From NCBI RefSeq assembly GCF_963678975.1, contig NC_089285.1:9782694-9846693 (forward strand): a DNA stretch of 64,000 nt, written 5' to 3'. This document shows positions 4,845 through 41,336 of this stretch, one piece after another. Origin of the DNA: Dysidea avara (Eukaryota > Porifera > Demospongiae > Dictyoceratida > Dysideidae). Numbering within the stretch: the first letter of the stretch is position 1; the number at the start of each line of letters is the position of its first letter. The notes under the pieces were generated by a model. The model did no database searches. It was not told the DNA's origin and saw only the letters and a list, made by a program, of their open reading frames with translations. Made by a program: the position numbers and the translations under genes.

Positions 4845-5834
4845 TTAAAAACCTGTCAATAATTACCTGCGCCTTGGTAATTACTGATGTCACCTCAGGT
4901 TTTTAAATCTTCGAGGATGCTTATTACGTGTGCCTAACAATTATTAAGACACAAAGTCAAGAATCATTAATGTTGATTTTGTAATTATGCAACTCCTAAA
5001 TCATGCACAATAATAATCATGAGAAATCCATTATCAAATTCAATTATGCATGCAATTGCTCCATTTTCATTTGTGACATGACCTAAGAAACCACAACATT
5101 GTACAGTACAGCCAAGAAGTCACATGTGACCTAGATAGCTCATGTCACTTAAGTGTGACACAAAGGAATAATAGTTATTGATTGAGTAGAGGAGTACTGA
5201 GAAAAACACTGATAAGTAGATAGTAGATGGATAACTTCGTGTGTCAATTATTTCAATTTTGTATAAAAGAAATGTATAAAGCTACTAAAATTAACCCAAG
5301 CATGTGCAGTTGCTGCACATACTGAAGTTGAGGTTAACTTCAAATTATACAGTATGTCAGATTTGAAGGGATTATAGTCAGAATAATACACTCTTTGGAG
5401 TCATTAGTGTGTACTATCAATTTTAGACCATTTAGGAGAAGTCAAATATCAAAGTGTTGTCAGCCGCTGGGGCTGCGCCCCGACCCCCGCTACCGTAAAC
5501 ACCTACCATGTCAAAGTTGAACCCCCTTTGACAAATCCTGGTTACGGGCCTGAGCTGTTGTGCAATCACTACTGGATCCCTCATGACAATATATTACATC
5601 GCTAAACACTTCCTTGGCCAAATTGAGCAGAATAATTTGCTCAGCATTTTCCACATTTGGCAACACTACTGGTCTTTTCGACCCTTGTAAACGACTAAAA
5701 CTTCTCGCACATTGGACATTGTGAAGCCACGTTGTCGAGTTAATCACGCATGCGTACAACTTATAACTAAGAACGTGACGTTGTAAGCTAGAACGTAACG
5801 TTCTAAACACATAATTTTGAAACAGATGGCATGC
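4845..5834. other. no gene recognised; GC-rich element-like tail at 5460-5560
   Basis: The first 600 bases show no coding signal. At 5463-5498 there is a short GC-rich stretch (GGGGCTGCGCCCCGACCCCC). On the minus strand about 5560-5515 reads ARNQDLSKGVQL, a phrase I associate with the degenerate ends of dispersed repeats in invertebrates. The minus-strand open frame at 5511-5852 has no recognisable domain. Confidence 0.4.
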
Positions 5835-27296: not shown

Positions 27297-28557
27297 GGAA
27301 CCAATTGTGTGTTCTGTATTTATCTTTTCAGTGCAAAAATGTACAGAGGGGTTGTGCATGTATATATTACAGTGACAAATAACTGATTTGATAATGCACT
27401 GATGGCACAATGGCATCCTGTGCCAGTGCCCAAAAACAAAAGTAAATATAATAAGATCTCATTAGATCAATACCTCTGTCATCTTGACACACCAAATAAT
27501 CCATAAACTAGCTATCTCAGACTAACAACCCAGCCAGTTGAAAGTTCACCTTGAAAGTCCACTGAATTTGAAATAACACACACCTCAGGTTACTATAATT
27601 ATTGTGGATATCAACGTCCTAATAAGATACAACAGAGCAACTCAATTCAGGTACACCTATTTTCCAACAACCTTATTTATTCTAAGCGCAGAGCTATTAA
27701 TTATGAACACCTGTGTACTCTTATATCATCGCCCAATCCTTACATTATAACATTACATTATAACATCCTTACATTATAACATTTACAACATTATAGCAAA
27801 AGAGCCACGATTCATAGAGTACTTCAACGGGCAGTATGCAAATCGGACTGGTACGGTACATTTGTAGTTATGGCAAGGCTTTGTCAGATCCCCACCCGCA
27901 TTGCAATGTCTCACTGCCTAAATTTAGTCAAATTATAACATCATGCAAGTTTTCACTATTATTCAATCATTTAAATGATTAATGATTGCATGGGAGTAAT
28001 AAATTAATTTTCTTGCATAGTTAGGCATAAAGAAAGTACGCTAGGTAGACTAAAGATCCATCTAATGTCAAGGGGAAGCTGCTTTTAGCCCATTCTCTTC
28101 TTAAGATAGTGGGGTAGTGATTACTAGCAGATCAAAATACTGTAATAGAGAAGTTAGTTGACTTTAATAAAACAATCTAAGAACAGTGAGCTGCTTTCCC
28201 ACAACGGTTTTCCTAATCTGATACATAAAACATTAATTAGGGCTGCAGAAAACTAAAGTGGCATGCTGGCACTTTGATCACAAAGACACCGACATTAACA
28301 TATTTTGTGGAAAGATATGGATTAGTTATACATTATGAATCTTATAATTGTTACATGTGCAGTTTCTTTAATAAACTGAAGTAATCCTAAATATTTCACT
28401 CACAAAGTTAAGAGATGTGATGATCTCACTGAAGTACTGATAACAATTGAGACAGATGTATTTTTGAGGATTATTATCTACAGGCGACGCTTCAAAGAAG
28501 CAAGGAGACAAACATAACAGGGGAATGAGGGTAGAGGTTTCAAGATGTAAGTACACA
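27297..28557. other. no gene; short ACATTATAAC repeats
   Basis: A word like CATTATAACA is repeated four times at about 27740-27800. Nothing else supported up to the left end of the P-type element. Confidence 0.45.
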
Positions 28558-28600
28558 CATAGATAATAGACCCACCTGGATATGAAACTAATCACTTGCG
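28558..28600 (+). repeat. left terminal inverted repeat of the P-type element
   Basis: CATAGATAATAGACCCACC onwards, matched by the reverse complement of 33715-33756. Confidence 0.88.
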
Positions 28601-28639
28601 CGCATGAGTTTCTATTGGAATTCAATATCCTATCCTAGT

Positions 28640-29161
28640 TTCGCACGTAAAAAAAGAAGCCGTATGGTTTGTGGCCTAGCCAGCTGATAAACGCTTACAA
28701 GTGCTGCAAGTAGTTTGTTTAGGTGGTTTTGTGGATTGTTCTCTGGTTGAAGCCACTTATCGTAAGTGGGTTTATTATGTTGATATTGTGGTCAGTCATA
28801 TTTGTCAACGCATTGCTCGCTAATGTATTGGTTGAGCTGTAATGTCGTTGCTAAATCTTGCTTTGTTACTCTGTAACGTGTGTTATTATCCCTGTTTTGA
28901 ATGGATTCGGTGTTGTTTGCTGCATGCGTTTGTTCCATGCAATCAATTTTGTCACCACATTCATTTGGTGCCTGTATAACCCAGAGCTTTAAACTCACAT
29001 GATTTAATCTTTGTACATTATACTGTGTTATAAAGCAAATCCCATAGCCACAGTGTATTTTACCACAGATTTATATTATCATGAAATCAGTGTATTGAAA
29101 TGTTGTATTCATCACTAGCTATAGCCCTCACTCTCCCTGCATATCACTTGATGTACCCCTG
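28640..29161 (+). other. P-type element 5' leader, no THAP domain seen
   Basis: About 520 bases between the left end and the first coding exon. I read the frames for the C2CH zinc finger (THAP) that begins many P-type transposases and found none. It may hold the promoter or an untranslated exon. Confidence 0.4.
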
Positions 29162-32100
29162 ATGCCCAGAACACAGAGGAAGCATGGTAAAGGCCCCAGA
29201 AGCAAGGCTCGTATAGGTCGTAGATATAAAAACAACTTGTGGAGCAGAAAACAGACCAGCTTGGATAATGAATTTGGATCAACTAGATTGGAAGATGAAA
29301 GCGGGAAGCCACCAGATAGTAGCAGGGAGCCATCACATGATAACAGGGCTGAGCCACGTGAAGATAACAGGAAGCCACCAGATGATAGCAAGAAACCACC
29401 AGATGATAGGCACCCAATGTTCCTGTAAGTTGTGGCGTAGACATTGTGATATTAATGCTCTTGTTTAGTAATTATTAGTAATTAATAGTGTACAGTCACT
29501 GTTAATTGATGTGTTTTTGTATAGGCAGATGATTGTTCAGAAACAATGCAACTGCAAGCCTCTGTTCCAGGTATTGTCATTAGTGTATATTGTGGTAGAA
29601 ACTATCTAGGAATCTCTTGACTCTTGTGCTCAGTTATTAGCTCTGAATGGACTACCAGAAGGGTGGTTCTTTAGCTATACTCAAGTGGAGTTAAGAATAT
29701 TTGAAACTTTCAGTCAGTGTCATCTCAAACCACTAATCATATTACGGCTTTTGTTAATTAAAGAAGATCTTACCTGGGAAGTTCATGTTGCTGACCATGC
29801 TGTTCCCTATCAATGTGCTATTCTTGACCAATTTCCCTCATCTATGAATAACGAAAGTTTGTTAAGTTTGATTGGTGCTGTTTCCTCTGCTAGTGTTTGT
29901 CAGGGAAATTTTGATGTCAGATATATTGCCATGGCCAGGATTCGGAAAGGAATTTTCACATCACAAGGTGGAGAAGTTGTGGCTTACTTAGATCAATCAT
30001 TTTGCATAACGGTCAACGGAGAACAGCACAGTACAACCATTCGACATGCTAAATGTGAACTGCTAATTGCTGGCGATCTGTGTGCTCCATGTTATGGATT
30101 TCGTAACACACTTCGAGCATTGTTTTCTAAGCTCAGAAACAGGTCAGTTGTTCCATCTGTGTATACCAACACAAGATGTTTAAGAACACCACAAAAGAGT
30201 GCTCGCATAAAATCACTTCAGAAAGCTTTACATATTAAAACCAGGCAGTTAAAGCAGTTGAGAATGAGGCTAGACAGCATACTGGAAAGCAATGGAGTGG
30301 TTGTGGCAGATGATCTCAGATGTGATTTAGAAAAGGTTGTAGACAGCCATCAAGTACCGGAAGAAGATGAATTTAAGCGGGTATTTTGGGAACAGCAGGT
30401 AGGCTGTGTACCTATGAAAAATGTAAAGACTACAACTTTCTATGTTTTAGGTTGCTGCATGGAAAGCAAAGAAGACCGGAGTTCGATGGCACCCTTTATT
30501 CATACGATGGTGTTTAAATATTATGCTAACATCAAGCAAAACATACCAGATAATTCGAGAATCTGGCTTTATTTGTTTGCCATCACAGCGAACTCTTAAA
30601 GACTACACACATTGGACCAAATTGCAACCTGGCTTTAATGCAGACTTGTTCAATCATATGATCCAAGAAGCTAAGGTAGATCAGATGAAGGATTGGGAAA
30701 GGTCTGATCATGGTTACTAATTAAGGTTTTTGTATTTTAATTTGTGTACAGGTACGTTATTTTGGTGTTAGATGAAATGAAGATCCCTGCTGACTTGGTG
30801 TTCAACAAGATGTCTGGGGAGATTACCGGCTTTGTTGATTATGGAGCAGGAACCCTAGAGCACAAGTTTACACAGTTACAGCAACAATGCAAGCAGCAAA
30901 AACTTTCTGACAGAGAAGTAGCAACACATATGCTAACCGTGATGGTCAGGGGGTTAACTTTTCATTTGGATTTACCAATTGCTCATTTTGCAACAACAGG
31001 TGTGATAGTTCAAGTGTAAATTGTAGATGATAATTTTTGTAGGTGCAACAGCAGAGCAGCTCATGGCTGTTGTGTGGAGGGCCATCAGGATGTTGCAGCT
31101 TGCTGGTTTGACAGTTGTTTCTGTGGTTGCAGATGGTGCTTCTAGTAAGCAAAAATTTTTCCGACTGCATAATATTTCAGAATACCAGAAATCTGGTGTT
31201 ACATACAAAGCACCAAATATCAGTCGGAGTGGCCACTTTGTGTATCTCATGCCAGATGCACCACACTTGTTGAAGACAATCTGTAATGCATGGTACAATT
31301 CACAAGTTAAAGGAACCCGGAATTTGATAGTAAGAGTAAATCTGATATATATGTTATTCATGTTAATTTGTATGGCAGAATGATGGACATGAGATACAGT
31401 GGGCACATTTGGTAGAATTGTGTGAGAAAACAGTTGCTGAGACTGGGCTGTACATTGGAAAAAAACTGACTCGTGAACACATACAACTGACATCTTATTC
31501 ACGTATGAATGTGCGACTAGCAGCCCAGGTATGAGATACTATCCCTTGTTTTATGTTCATTATAGTTATTTATGTTTAGGTATTGAGTACTTCAGTTGCC
31601 AATGGTTTCCAGACCCTAAGGACACTGAAGGAACCCTTGATACCATAGCAACAGAGATGTTTTGCAGAATTTTTGACAAGTTTTTTGACATATGCAACAC
31701 GCGCTCTGTAGATGAACATATAATCAAAAAAAAGCCTAATGTCAAACCATTTTATGAAGCTGGTGATGAAAGGCTTGAGGTAGTTCATATATTTTCCTTG
31801 GTCTAGACAATACAATACTTGGTGTTTACATTATAGTGGTTGGAAGGGACCCTGCTTAAGTATTTGGATGACTGGCAGAAATGGGTGGAAGGCAATGAGA
31901 AGATTCCTGCTGGAGTCAAGAAATACTGTTTATTACCAGACCAGACTGTGGAAGGAATAAAGATTTGTGGAAGGTGATGCTAAAAAGCTGTTATTGTTTA
32001 GTTCATTCACTGAGAGAAGTAATCAAGTTTCTATTGGATCAAAATGGAATAGAGTATGTGTTGACAGAGCGCTTTAATCAGGACCTATTTGAAATCTTCT

Positions 32101-32306
32101 TTGGCCAGCAGAGATCCAGGGGTTTCCGCAATGACAACCCATCTATGAAGCAGTGCTTGGAGAATGCCCAGGCACTGGTAGTTCAAAAGTCATTAGCCTG
32201 TGGCGGGAGTAGTAACATTGCCAAGAAAAGAAAGAGCATGGGCTCAGTATCCCCATTGTCCAGACCCTTACCCAAGCGTAAATGCAAACGACTTAATTTT
32301 AATTAA
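29162..32306 (+). pseudogene. P-element/THAP9-type transposase, nine exons
   Basis: Would cut and paste its own element. Exons read by eye: 29162-29424, 29525-29570, 29634-30399, 30451-30700, 30752-30999, 31043-31329, 31379-31528, 31580-31779 and 31837-32306. The first exon is basic, then has Pro-Asp-Asp-rich repeats. Family motifs follow: VAAWKAKKTGVRWHP, SGFICLPSQRTLKDYTHW, then VLVLDEMKI (first Asp, 30771), VVADGASSKQKFF (second Asp, 31132), PDAPHLLKTICNAW, the GTP-binding-like insertion region, LPDQTVEGIKI and FNQDLFEIFFGQQRSRG (catalytic Glu, 32091). The three acidic residues match the D-D-E triad of the family. Two frame changes, near 31610 and 31965, break it. The usual THAP finger is absent. 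The rest is well kept, so decay is recent. Confidence 0.88.
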
Positions 32307-32383
32307 TTACTGTTATTCTGACTTGAAAAGAAATTAAATTTATAACAATGTGACAATGTTTAATTACTAACATAATGATTGTA

Positions 32384-33655
32384 CTAATGTAATTCTTTTC
32401 TTGTTCCTTTTGTACCTTTGATGTTCTTTTTAGTAGCTAATTTGTACTGCTCCACAAGCTGGCTTGCAATGGAGAATCCTCTAATAGTAAACCACTCTTG
32501 AGCAACTTCTCGTAAAAGTGACATCTTTACTTTTCATCAGAAATATCAGTAGCGATTTCCCACAGGAACTTTACATTTCATCACAAACCACCTCACACAT
32601 CACCTTTTCTTTTTGCTCTCCTGCTGCAATAAGCCTATATAGGTGATCATCTCAATGGCGACAAAGCACCTATATGTATCATCAGATACATGCCGCAAGC
32701 CTCCCCTATCATTAGTGCAGGTCCACGTTTTGACATAGTCCAGGTATGAGCTGGTATCCTGAGGGGTGTCCCCAACAGCATCTTGCCCAACCATGGACAA
32801 TAATGCCCCCACAATTTTAACTGCCCTTTCTTCTGTGCTCTGCCGATGTTTCTTGATTAGTTTATAAACAACATATCCTGCGGCATAGTAAATAGCATTT
32901 TCTTCAATCTGCGACAACTGGCATGTTGGCTCTGCCTCAGTGGGTACTAGCTGGTCTTCTGCATTATCAACTTGAAATAATCTGTCCACAATCATCTATG
33001 TATATATAAATGTATTTATGCTCGGTAAGCATAGACATAATATACTCCACATGGATATGAAACTAGGAAGCGCACTCATTCTACACTACTAGACAGCTTT
33101 AGTACGACAATATTATTATAAATTTAAAAGATTAAAACAATGGTTCAAAATACTTGCCAGCAAAGTATATTATTCAGCTACACAGGTGCACATGTAAAGT
33201 TGGCATTTCTTGATATCACACCAAATGAACATACTCAAAGGCCTCTAGCCTAACCAGGTACGGTCAAGAGATGTGACCTGCCTACTGATAAAAAAGTTAC
33301 AGTGTAACCGGCTAACCTGCCACAATATGATGTCGTTCATGCTGCCTTCTTCCTCGGTCCCTAGTCGCTGCAGCACGGTAGGCAACCTCTCTACTTGATA
33401 TAAGTATGCAGCTTGAAACAACTTTTGTTTAACGGTCACCGTCTTCCTCTTCTCCTGTATTTCTTCGCGTATTAACTTGTACATAGCACAAGAATCATTG
33501 TTCTCTTTAACACACAAACCGTCGATTGTCACCAAAATGTTTTTACATCGATCAGACTGAATCTTTAAGTCTTCAGAAAAATAAATATCTCGCAGGACTT
33601 CTTGGAAACAACTAACTGTGCCTTCTGTGACGGATTTTTACCTTTAGCCGCCATA
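32384..33655 (-). pseudogene. second gene of the P-type element; unnamed accessory protein
   Basis: Convergent with the transposase. A possible start is at 33655 (MAAKGKNP), though the frame is lost soon after; the clear reading begins QEVLRDIYFSEDLK. Exon 1 ends at NDIILWQ with a GT donor; exon 2 starts at 32995 (MIVDRLFQV). It then reads ENAIYYAAGYVVYKLIKKH, SYLDYVKTWTCTNDRGGL, KFLWEIATDISDEK and EWFTIRGFSIASQLVEQYK, ending KGTRKELH. The last four blocks align with YALRYASGYIIRAL, DWIKLIDRGGL, DVLFYWNIVSESW and LWITIRKFSAAS in the gene at 40262-41336. Three frame changes lie after about 32600. I recognise the AGYV...RGGL...IRGFS pattern from unnamed invertebrate proteins only. No enzyme motif is evident; a role in transposition is inferred from position. 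Confidence 0.75.
33037..33085 (+). repeat. internal copy of the P-type element end repeat
   Basis: CATAGACATAATATACTCC, then ATGGATATGAAACTAGG, resembles the left terminal repeat in the same orientation. It lies inside the intron of the minus-strand gene. It may be a second transposase binding site or the scar of an older end. Confidence 0.6.
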
Positions 33656-33714
33656 TCTGCATTAACAATAGTGTAGTGGGCGCGCGAGGGGCGCGAAACC
33701 AGCCTATAACCGGG

Positions 33715-33756
33715 GGCGCTTATTAGTTTTATATCCAGGTGGGTATATTATCTATG
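33715..33756 (-). repeat. right terminal inverted repeat of the P-type element
   Basis: Reverse complement begins CATAGATAATATACCCACC and continues TGGATATAAAACTAAT. GTACACA follows directly. Confidence 0.88.
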
Positions 33757-33763
33757 GTACACA

Positions 33764-38285: not shown

Positions 38286-38308
38286 TATGTTTTTATTATA
38301 TTTTGTTT

Positions 38309-40130
38309 AGTGATGCATACAGAATTTATGAGGGACATGATGGTTAAATATGGTAGCAAAATAATATGCATGGATTCAACCCATGGGACAAACATGTACC
38401 AGTTTTTGCTTATTACCATTATGATAATTGATGAACATGGTGAAGGATTGCCAGTGGCTTGGGCAATCAACAATAAGGAAGATACCACTATGCTTGTTAA
38501 ATATTTAACAGCAGTAAAAGGGAAGACTGAAAAGATTACTCCAACTGTTTTTATGTCATATGACGCTGACGCATTTTACAATGCATGGAAATGTGTGTTT
38601 GGAGAAACAAAAAGGCTTTTATGCTTTTTCCATGTCGACCGAGCCTGGAGAAATAAACTTAATGAACTTGTTAAGGATAAACAACACCTGCTTGAAGTGT
38701 ACCACCAACTAAGGACCTTACTCATGGAAAGAGATGAAGCCAAATTTCATGTAATGTTGTAGCAGTTTGTGTCACGAATGAAAGACTGTCATCCATCATT
38801 TTACACTTATTTTTCTGCTACATATGGCCGAAGAGCAAGTATATGGGCCACCTGCTATAGAATTGGTACCATCGCCAATACTAAAAAAGAGGTATTTAAC
38901 CGAAAGCTGAAAGTTGTGTATTTAAATAACAAACAAAGTCGGCGTCTTGATTATTTACTTCATGTTTTGTTAAAATTATCCCGTGATATCATATTTGAAG
39001 CCTTCAGAAAGCAAGAAGTAGGCAAAGTAACTCACAGAAAATGTGAAATCAACCGAAGGCATGCACGGGCAAAAGAAATGGATATAGCTACAGTTAAGGC
39101 TTGCTCTGACACTGCCAATGAGTGGCAGATTCAGTCCTTTAGTGATCGTTATTCTTTCTATTATGTGACTGTGCAAAAGAATGACTGTGATTGTCAGATG
39201 AGGTGTGAACGATGCAATGTCTGTGTACATATGTATTCTTGATGCCACATTGCACTATACAGTGTGCAAGCATGTGCATTTAGTGTGTATGCACCGCAGC
39301 CAAAGCAGTGATGAACTGGATTATCAAGTGTTGCAGCTGCACAGAGACAGTATTAAGCAAGATGATCAGATGTTGCAGCAGTACAGCCAAAGTAGTGATG
39401 AACAGGTGTTGCAGCTGTCCAGTCATAGTAATGAACTGGGTGATCAGATGTTGCAGCTGCACAGACACAGTATTGAGCAAGATGATCAGGTGTTGCAGCA
39501 ACACAGCCAAAGTGGTGATGAACCAGATGATCAGGTGTTGCAGCAACACAGCCATAGTAATGAGCAAGACGATCAGGTCATGCATGGTAATGATGAGCAA
39601 GATGTTGAGATGCTAAAGGAAGGAAAACAGCACAGTGGTCAGTGTGCAGACACACACATGTACTTTTTGAAAATGTTAAAGAAGAGGAAACAAGCACGTG
39701 CAACTGATCTTGATGCAAAGGATCAAAAGAGGATGATGTTAAGTGATGAAACTCTTATTGGAATTCGAATGACTGGTTTGTGCAAAAAAAATTATTCTGC
39801 AATACATTAATTTGATGTTCTTTTCAGTGAATTCATTTGTGGAGTTGGTAGAGTACTTGTTTACTGTTCCTGGTGTTAAAGTCTTCCTTAGCTCTAAAGT
39901 TAATCAAGATGGATTAGAGAAGTACTTTAGCATGGTGAGGCAGAACAGAGGAAGTAATGAAAATCCGACAGTGCACGCAGACACTACGAGTTGCAAATTC
40001 AGTATGTAGAAACGTACACATTAAAGGTGGCAATTGTCACAGGGAAGAGAAGAGAAAGTTAGACCTGGCCCAAGAAATAGAAGAGGGTAAGCTCCTACCA
40101 AAAAGAGCAAGAAGGTCATCCATTCTCTTA
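38309..40130 (+). pseudogene. MULE/SWIM transposase joined to a P-type C-terminal segment
   Basis: A plus-strand gene with its 5' part missing. The first block has CMDSTHGTNMYQF (first Asp, 38372), MSYDADAFYNAW and RLLCFFHVDRAW, a MULE-type DDE core. After a TAG at 38761 come ATYGRRASIWATCYRIG and KNDCDCQMRCERC then DATLHYTVCKHVHLVC, a SWIM zinc finger split by a frame change near 39235. One open frame (39205-39810) carries the finger through 14-residue repeats (39300-39580) to RMMLSDETLIGIRMT. A splice site then leads to VNSFVELVEYLF and SKVNQDGLEKYFSMVRQ. That last block matches the Glu-bearing end of P-type transposases (LPDQTVEGI and FNQDLFEIFFG at 31950-32100). It is either a chimeric transposase or a fusion by nested insertion. 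Confidence 0.7.
39300..39580 (+). repeat. in-frame 42-bp coding minisatellite
   Basis: About seven units encode variants of DDQVLQQHSQSSDE (14 residues). Units alternate QLH and QQH types, and one is shorter. The frame stays open across the array. Confidence 0.85.
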
Positions 40131-40261
40131 TTGTGCTTGTACATCACATTATTTCTATCATGTTATTATGTGTGTAGTGACTGTGCAGTATGCTTGTACA
40201 TCACATAATATACTTAATACGTTGTGGGATATAGCATATACTCAGTTTAAGTAATATTCAA

Positions 40262-41336
40262 CCGTTTTCTAACTCCCTTGGACTTTTGTAGCTGTTTTGA
40301 GCTGGCTTGTTTATGAATTTCGATCCATCCAGAAGCAGCTGAAAACTTTCGTATTGTAATCCAAAGATTTACGATCATACGCAGCATAGTACTTGCAACT
40401 TCCTCCTCCCAAGATTCTGACACAATGTTCCAATAAAAGAGCACATCAGCACTGTTCACCAACCTCTCTGTAATTCATTCTATGACATTGTCATACTCAA
40501 TTCCATGTAACCCTTCTTCAAGCATTGGCAGTAACTCTAGTTCCATTTGGAAAACTGTCATGTACATCATCTCATTGACATGGACCAGGCCACCACGGTC
40601 AATAAGTTTTATCCAGTCACTACTTGAAGATGACTCATCGTCAGAGTCTGGAGTGGTTGTCAGTTCCTCTAAGTGTAATAAGAGAGACTGCTTGAGGAAG
40701 TGAGCAGATGTTTTCAAGCGTTCCTGAGTGCTCTTATGATATAACCTGAGGCATACCTCAAAGCATATTGCTCTTCATAACTTAGGCCATCACTGGTAGT
40801 ACTCGTTCTGTTTTCTACCACAATGAAGTGTTCATGTATGATTTTTTCAGCAACCACGTCTATGACACACTGGTAAAAAAGAGGACTTCCTTTGATTCCT
40901 ATCTTGGTAGATATCATCATCCAGTGATCAGCAAAGGTTTGAGACGTTTGTAACTTTAAAAGCTTCTCCCACATCTGTGCTCTATAGTTGGCTGATGCTG
41001 AACACTGGTAGTACAAGGTTCTGTGAACTTTACCAAATGTTCACAGAACCCGGTACAAGCTGCTTTATTTTGTGGATCATTTATCCAGCCAAGCATTACT
41101 TGAGCTGAGTCATTCATTGCTTTAGCTTGCTCTGAGATTGGCTCTTCTCCAAGTAGATCCTCAACAGCTTGTTGCACCAGAATATCAGGGTCTAAAAACA
41201 ATTGAAACGAAACTAGTAAACTCTGCAGTGTAAATACTCTACATTTAATACCAGACATTACACACACAAATTCTCCACACATGAAATAATGGCGGATAGT
41301 CCGTCCACATAGCAGGAAAAGGCGTGAAACATTCAT
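40262..41336 (-). pseudogene. accessory protein gene, homologue of the P-element second gene
   Basis: Convergent with the gene at 38309-40130, as at 32384-33655. The clear reading starts at an acceptor at about 41191: DPDILVQQAVEDLLGEEP and NDSAQVMLGWIND. After a frame change at a small palindrome (41017-41050) it continues YRAQMWEKLLKLQTSQTF, EEQYALRYASGYIIRAL, DSDDESSSSSDWIKLIDRGG, MYMTVFQMELELL, then NSADVLFYWNIVSESWEEE, LWITIRKFSAASGW and QKSKGVRKRLN. The C-terminal half aligns block by block with the gene in the P-type element. Two or three stops or frame changes break it. Function unknown. Confidence 0.72.
41017..41050. repeat. perfect 12-bp palindrome with 10-base loop
   Basis: GGTTCTGTGAAC and its complement GTTCACAGAACC, at the point where the accessory gene changes frame. 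The extra arm may be what broke the gene. Confidence 0.85.

Follow-up and report, generated by a model that had tools for sequence, protein, structure and literature searches.

The 64,000-nucleotide stretch of DNA analysed here, hereafter the window, comes from the sponge Dysidea avara (contig NC_089285.1, positions 9,782,694 to 9,846,693) and contains, at positions 28558-33756, a P-type transposable element that equals C14:9811251-9816449 of the 550.8-Mb genome (G000). We found that its left end repeat (CATAGATAATA...) starts at 28558, that the inverted counterpart ends at 33756, with 33 identical bases out of 35, and that the 7-bp duplication GTACACA stands on both flanks (28551-28557 and 33757-33763). 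Between these ends, two genes are arranged tail to tail: the frames of gene 1, on the plus strand, end at the stop codon 32304-32306; gene 2, on the minus strand, starts with an ATG at 33654-33652 and ends with the stop codon 32386-32384; and the two stops are 77 bp apart. The end repeats, the duplication and the two convergent genes had been reported in a preliminary description made from the letters of the window, and we could confirm each of them. The putative GT-AG intron of gene 2 (32996-33316) is read from the sequence, and the open frames agree with it. Compared with other copies, the window copy is frameshifted in gene 1 and in both exons of gene 2. The element is composed as follows.

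28551-28557, unstranded: left target-site duplication GTACACA, read in the sequence
28558-28592, plus strand: left terminal inverted repeat, with 33 of 35 compared bases matching its right counterpart
29099-29428, plus strand: first open frame of gene 1, with low-complexity repeats and no Pfam match
29610-30599, plus strand: frame of the N-terminal half of gene 1, with no THAP and no other convincing Pfam domain
30741-31383, plus strand: N-terminal part of the gene 1 RNase H domain, frames 30741-31019 and 31027-31383, PF21787 (E 4.6e-14 and 4e-4)
31477-31806, plus strand: GTP-binding insertion domain of gene 1, PF21788 (E 2.3e-4 in the window, below cut-off), frame shifted in the window copy
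31899-32306, plus strand: last frame of gene 1, C-terminal part of the RNase H domain (PF21789) with the QDxxE motif, stop 32304-32306, 70 residues past the motif
32307-32383, unstranded: measured gap of 77 bp between the convergent stop codons
32384-32995, minus strand: exon 2 of gene 2, probably related to the P transposase C-terminal domain, frameshifted in the window copy
32996-33316, minus strand: putative GT-AG intron of gene 2, from sequence reading and frames
33030-33073, plus strand: copy of the terminal-repeat motif within the gene 2 intron, also present in related copies
33317-33654, minus strand: exon 1 of gene 2, ATG 33654-33652, frameshifted in the window copy
33722-33756, minus strand: right terminal inverted repeat, located 68-102 bp ahead of the ATG of gene 2
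33757-33763, unstranded: right target-site duplication GTACACA, read in the sequence

The motif copy inside the gene 2 intron is oriented as the left end and might be a nested end or serve the transposase as an internal site. In the first frame of gene 1, a PPDDSRE-like tandem repeat (window 29280-29428, and 4849-5412 of locus L017) varies in length among copies.

Gene 1 and the catalytic part of the P transposase

Gene 1 contains the domains of a P-type catalytic core. Besides the strong PF21787 match of the window copy, PF21789 is matched at an expectation value (E) of 7.3e-5 in the window, just below the cut-off, and of 9.6e-8 at another locus (L037), and the GTP-binding family PF21788, below cut-off in the window, is matched above it at L039 (1.7e-11) and L017 (6.1e-9). 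A profile of the C-terminal part of gene 1 matches residues 497-552 of chain A of the Drosophila P transposase (6p5a_A, E=1.3e-9), and its QDxxE motif aligns with D528 and E531 of this chain, which a review on the fly enzyme assigns to GTP binding and to catalysis (PMC7776569).

In all 12 loci measured, a set in which the window, L017 and L019 are copies of one family and which does not include L041 and L065, the stop codon lies 60-74 residues past QDxxE. The deposited fly structure is itself divided into a chain A of 569 residues and a chain B of 135 residues. Taking the stop of gene 1 together with this division, we propose that the boundary between gene 1 and gene 2 corresponds approximately to the linker of the fly enzyme. 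The last exon of the fly gene presumably starts near the same boundary.

At the other end of the protein, no THAP match was found in the gene 1 frames scanned, where an intron-split domain could escape, and none of the best 150 of 586 candidates of a genome scan with PF05485 lies inside C14:9811251-9816449. The helix-turn-helix DNA-binding domain PF12017 is matched by an L039 frame at E 0.13, below cut-off. A separate case is L041 (G000:C10:17682500-17685300, positions 300-1810 of the locus), where the gene 1 frame continues via low-complexity repeats toward the frame of an Ulp1-type protease (PF02902, E 3.9e-25), with a convergent gene 2 behind; this locus is possibly a P-type element with a SUMO-protease module.

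Gene 2 and the C-terminal domain of the P transposase

In other families, a single open frame covers most of gene 2 and measures 305-373 amino acids in 18 of the 23 proteins aligned. We built several profiles of it: one mostly from close relatives (A1), and two from diverged families (A2, n=8 sequences; A4, n=23). Among 177,635 PDB sequences, the top match of both A2 and A4 is 6p5a_B (E=0.0082 and 0.014 for the whole chain), a chain that represents the C-terminal domain of the Drosophila P transposase and was deposited separately from chain A. Both alignments comprise the same two collinear segments, a GYVxxKL motif and a GGL motif. Searches of the PDB with single frames of gene 1 or gene 2 gave nothing useful, and no P transposase for the single gene 2 sequences; scans of viral_contigs and genome_contigs revealed no relative.

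The Pfam family of this domain, PF12596 (Tnp_P_element_C), points in the same direction: it matches 9 of the 23 gene 2 proteins at E<=1, and every other family matches two at most. The seven matches seen in detail (E 2.5e-4 to 0.13) are all below the curated cut-off, one of them by half a bit, and all end at profile positions 93-99 of 107; that of L041 spans 59 positions and goes beyond the motif. A scan of the whole 550-Mb genome with PF12596, which is independent of our gene 2 alignments, returned 13 matches (E 0.02-0.95, four marked over cut-off), of which 12 fall on gene 2 sequence, i.e., 11 at listed gene 2 places plus the best match, C8:18760054 (L069), a gene 2 that faces a gene 1; the remaining one, C9:323208, is not assigned to gene 2. 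No single score is decisive, and it is the agreement of these results that makes a relationship between gene 2 and the P transposase C-terminal domain most likely. A known DNA-binding regulator was also considered as its identity and rejected, no such Pfam domain having reached cut-off in the gene 2 scans.

Copies, pairing and divergence of the two genes in the sponge genome

Copies or pieces of the window family were found on C8, C12, C14, C6, C1 (two), C5, C15, C91 and C2, and both ends could be read in eight copies (window, C8, C12, C14, C6, C1, C5 and C91). An exact 7-bp duplication flanks six of them (GTACACA in the window, GTTTATC at C6, ATACAAA at C1, GTGTAAT at C5, GATTAAC at C14, GAGGGAC at C12), and none was found at C8 and C91. 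The long left end is present at 10 places, nine of which have gene 2 sequence, the tenth (L024) being truncated just ahead of gene 2; one full copy, L018, has an internal inversion spanning both gene ends. Five copies (L021, L022, L023, L025 and L026) have in common the loss of the gene 1 core and a 7-nt frame-shifting deletion in gene 2, and their gene 2 exon 2 sequences are 96-99% alike. They appear to have spread after gene 2 broke, which is the expectation if both proteins act in trans. The shared deletion also rules out that gene 2 was retained in these derivatives as a KP-like repressor.

At G000:C14:7917272-7942005, the gene 2 intron of a family member is interrupted by about 25 kb with ends resembling a short inverted repeat; at C14:3620290-3620903 and C7:20848531-20849144, paired end matches stand about 614 bp apart, too short for either gene, as in derivatives resembling miniature inverted-repeat transposable elements.

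The convergent layout is not limited to this family. A genome scan with PF21789 provided the best 150 of 251 candidates, all over the family cut-off, and three gene 2 queries provided the best 150 of 241, 118 of 367 and 110 of 425 candidates; the counts are lower bounds. For pairing, we used 38 of 119 entries of the second gene 2 query and 80 of 113 of the third (hand count), the omitted entries being mainly repeats of listed places, with about nine second-frame entries of the first query. With the first two queries, a gene 2 match lies within 4 kb of 86 of the 150 listed catalytic-domain places, 85 times convergent and downstream and once on the same strand, whereas chance alone would give 0.36 pairs with this first gene 2 list. 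The third query added partners, all convergent, for 35 of the remaining 64 places, one of them, added by hand, being a second element of the window described below. In total, 120 of the 150 listed places have an opposite-strand gene 2 downstream within 4 kb, one has a same-strand gene 2 and 29 have none listed (i.e., 120 convergent cases in 121 listed pairs). Nine of these 29 loci were fetched, and five of them do have a convergent gene 2 (L060, L062, L065, L066, as a fragment only, and L068).

Gene 2 is conserved across this diversity. In the alignment of 23 proteins, six columns are invariant and 12 nearly so, in families that share 22-40% protein identity. We calculated the ratio of non-synonymous to synonymous substitution rates (dN/dS) for 13 gene 2 pairs, six of which are saturated at silent sites. 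The three diverged pairs gave 0.18 for L034/L040 (dS 0.42), 0.14 for L045/L037 (dS 1.94) and 0.23 for L050/L051 (dS 2.28), silent sites being near saturation for two of these low values, and recent pairs with dS of 0.03-0.06 gave 0.27, 0.41, 0.88 and 0.96. Gene 2 thus looks constrained. Moreover, the gene 1 and gene 2 distances among 12 loci are correlated (Mantel r=0.51, reached by 1 of 5000 permutations), and the two genes seem to have been carried together for long, some recent copies decaying. The minus-strand gene inside the end repeats, which the preliminary description had called conserved, is indeed so, both in this alignment and in its convergent position at 120 of the 150 listed places. 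The same description had considered that gene 2 would be a chance passenger if it were missing from other copies; within this genome, the full copies carry it, as do many much-diverged families, and the census of pairs contradicts the passenger.

A putative split transposase and its alternatives

We consider it very probable that the element is a P-type cut-and-paste transposon with a transposase split across two convergent genes, gene 2 corresponding to the C-terminal domain. The observations behind this reading are the layout, its generality in the sponge genome, the resemblance of each gene to the corresponding part of the fly transposase, the conservation of gene 2 and its co-divergence with gene 1. 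In this split enzyme, gene 1 would supply the catalytic part (RNase H fold and GTP-binding insertion), presumably also the preceding DNA-binding part, and would stop soon after the last catalytic residue, while gene 2 would provide in trans the domain that the fly protein carries in cis. Both proteins would be needed in transposition and would most likely assemble in trans on the end repeats into a P-type transpososome. The N-terminal 147 or so positions of gene 2 could include a docking part replacing the linker. With convergent transcription, each half of the enzyme could be driven by its own end repeat, and the close 3' ends of the two genes could limit its amount. In the fly, retention of intron 3 leads to a 66-kDa product without the C-terminal part, which represses transposition (PMC7776569); the gene 1 protein alone would likewise most likely be inactive or repressive.

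On the other hand, a series of results weighs against a split transposase. For gene 2, the match to 6p5a_B is weak in absolute terms (E about 0.01), the next PDB match of A4, TASOR, coming at E 0.051; its individual segments are not significant (E 0.55 and 88 for one profile, 0.48 and 110 for the other); the within-family profile A1 gave no P transposase match in the PDB; and 14 of the 23 proteins have no PF12596 match at E<=1. Exon 2 of the window, folded alone, gave a predicted structure with a mean confidence (predicted local distance difference test, pLDDT) of 42, which is uninformative on the fold. Gene 2 has about 147 profile positions ahead of the part aligned to 6p5a_B; the PF12596 family extends some 65 positions in front of the motif, so this stretch need not be wholly new. 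For gene 1, a four-sequence profile of the GTP-binding domain did not find 6p5a in the PDB, chalcone synthases coming at E 0.2, though PF21788 does match, and the gene 1 frames of L041 and L065 extend further than the others, though without a match to the gene 2 profile. As for the pairing, four of the nine fetched loci (L061, L063, L064 and L067) have no gene 2 in about 2 kb, and 81 of the 167 gene 2 places of the first list, most of them not examined, have no catalytic domain listed within 4 kb. To these are added the near-saturated silent sites of two low dN/dS values, the ratios near 1 of two recent pairs (0.88 and 0.96), and the spread of derivatives with a broken gene 2, which implies that gene 2 is not needed in cis.

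The preliminary description had left open whether gene 2 is a regulator or a partner of transposition. The partner came close, through the likeness to the C-terminal domain. Since gene 2 is related to this domain and gene 1 ends about where the linker begins, it most likely supplies the portion of the enzyme that gene 1 lacks, rather than being a separate regulator. A self-encoded regulator or repressor descended from the transposase C-terminal domain and acting outside catalysis is, in our opinion, unlikely. Drosophila P does repress its transposition via truncated transposase products (PMC7776569), and gene 2 sequence persists in the deletion derivatives. However, it is the DNA-binding N-terminal part that the 66-kDa fly repressor retains and the C-terminal one that it lacks, the reverse of gene 2, and in the five derivatives gene 2 is frameshifted and so not kept there as a repressor. 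Moreover, no C-terminal domain was found in gene 1, and without gene 2 the enzyme would miss a part that contacts DNA in the fly complex.

Still less probable is a separate accessory protein, devoted for example to nuclear import or DNA targeting, with a likeness to the P C-terminal domain confined to one motif. Two-gene Harbinger or Mutator-like elements offer a precedent for such a protein, the PDB and Pfam matches are weak and centred on one motif, and gene 2 carries an additional region at its N terminus and a basic tail at its C terminus. Against it stand the second collinear segment of the 6p5a_B match, the 59 positions over which L041 matches PF12596, the end of gene 1 near the start of the fly linker and the genome scan with PF12596, in which 12 of 13 matches are on gene 2 and none of those is a fused transposase. 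The capture of gene 2 from the host, or its presence as a chance passenger in the window family only, is very improbable: transposons of other kinds do capture genes and the window copy is decayed, but the same gene is present in families at 22-40% protein identity, is convergent in 120 of 121 listed pairs and has diverged together with gene 1.

Two-gene elements exist in other superfamilies, such as MuDR (mudrA/mudrB), with convergent genes, and Harbinger. To our knowledge, the second protein of MuDR or Harbinger is not known as a transposase domain, nor is the RAG2-like partner known as a domain of the catalytic protein. RAG-like transposons such as ProtoRAG resemble the sponge element in that a catalytic gene and a partner gene converge between end repeats flanked by duplications, but their catalytic family is different (PMC7204232).

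Within the P superfamily, the sponge element has the P-type RNase H-like catalytic domain, the GTP-binding insertion domain and probably, as a separate gene with single scores that are weak but agree with one another, the C-terminal domain; yet a single protein including this last domain and the canonical 8-bp target-site duplication are not found, the duplication being of 7 bp. This combination suggests a P-related two-gene lineage. The element and the Drosophila P 87-kDa transposase have in common the RNase H fold with a GTP-binding insertion (PF21787, PF21788, PF21789), terminal inverted repeats and the C-terminal domain to which gene 2 appears related, whereas in the fly a single protein includes a THAP domain and the duplications are of 8 bp (PMC7776569), and the sponge element has two convergent genes, 7-bp duplications and no THAP domain found in the frames scanned. 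THAP9 and zebrafish Pdre2 belong to the same superfamily and have an RNase H domain with a GTP-binding domain, a C-terminal domain and, in the zebrafish, repeats that also begin with CATA; there, the C-terminal domain is in the same protein, the repeats are of 13 bp and the duplications of 8 bp (PMC10983969). We found no description of a two-gene P element in the literature searched, a weak piece of evidence given its partial coverage.

The P element counts among the founding models of eukaryotic transposition, with an enzyme regarded as a single protein. A natural split form, maintained by numerous families within one genome, uncouples catalysis and the C-terminal domain and makes testable the role of this domain, the trans action between subunits and whether the fly control of enzyme and repressor by intron 3 has a counterpart with the domain as a separate gene. 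Annotation expecting one P transposase gene would overlook half of such elements.

It is conceivable, though doubtful, that the split convergent form came first in the superfamily. The enzymes of flies and vertebrates, each made of one protein, would then derive from it by inversion of the gene 2 segment and splicing of its exon onto gene 1, the supply of the C-terminal domain being the original on/off switch and the regulated intron 3 of the fly its derived form. L059 (G000:C1:59514500-59516300), the only same-strand case, presents the step that such a fusion would need: its gene 2, flipped to the strand of gene 1, lies about 80-115 bp downstream of it, behind a splice-acceptor-like sequence. 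Since short inverted repeats seem, on reading the sequence, to flank the gene 2 segment, this layout looks like a local inversion; an automatic self-comparison detected none of these repeats at its threshold.

Further along the window lies the second P-type element mentioned above, which is decayed and belongs to another family, with the same convergent layout.

39773-41040: second, decayed P-type element, with a gene 1 piece at 39773-40006 (plus strand) and gene 2 pieces at 40250-41040 (minus strand)

It is adjoined by an open stretch at about 38300-39240 that resembles a different transposase, as a candidate only.

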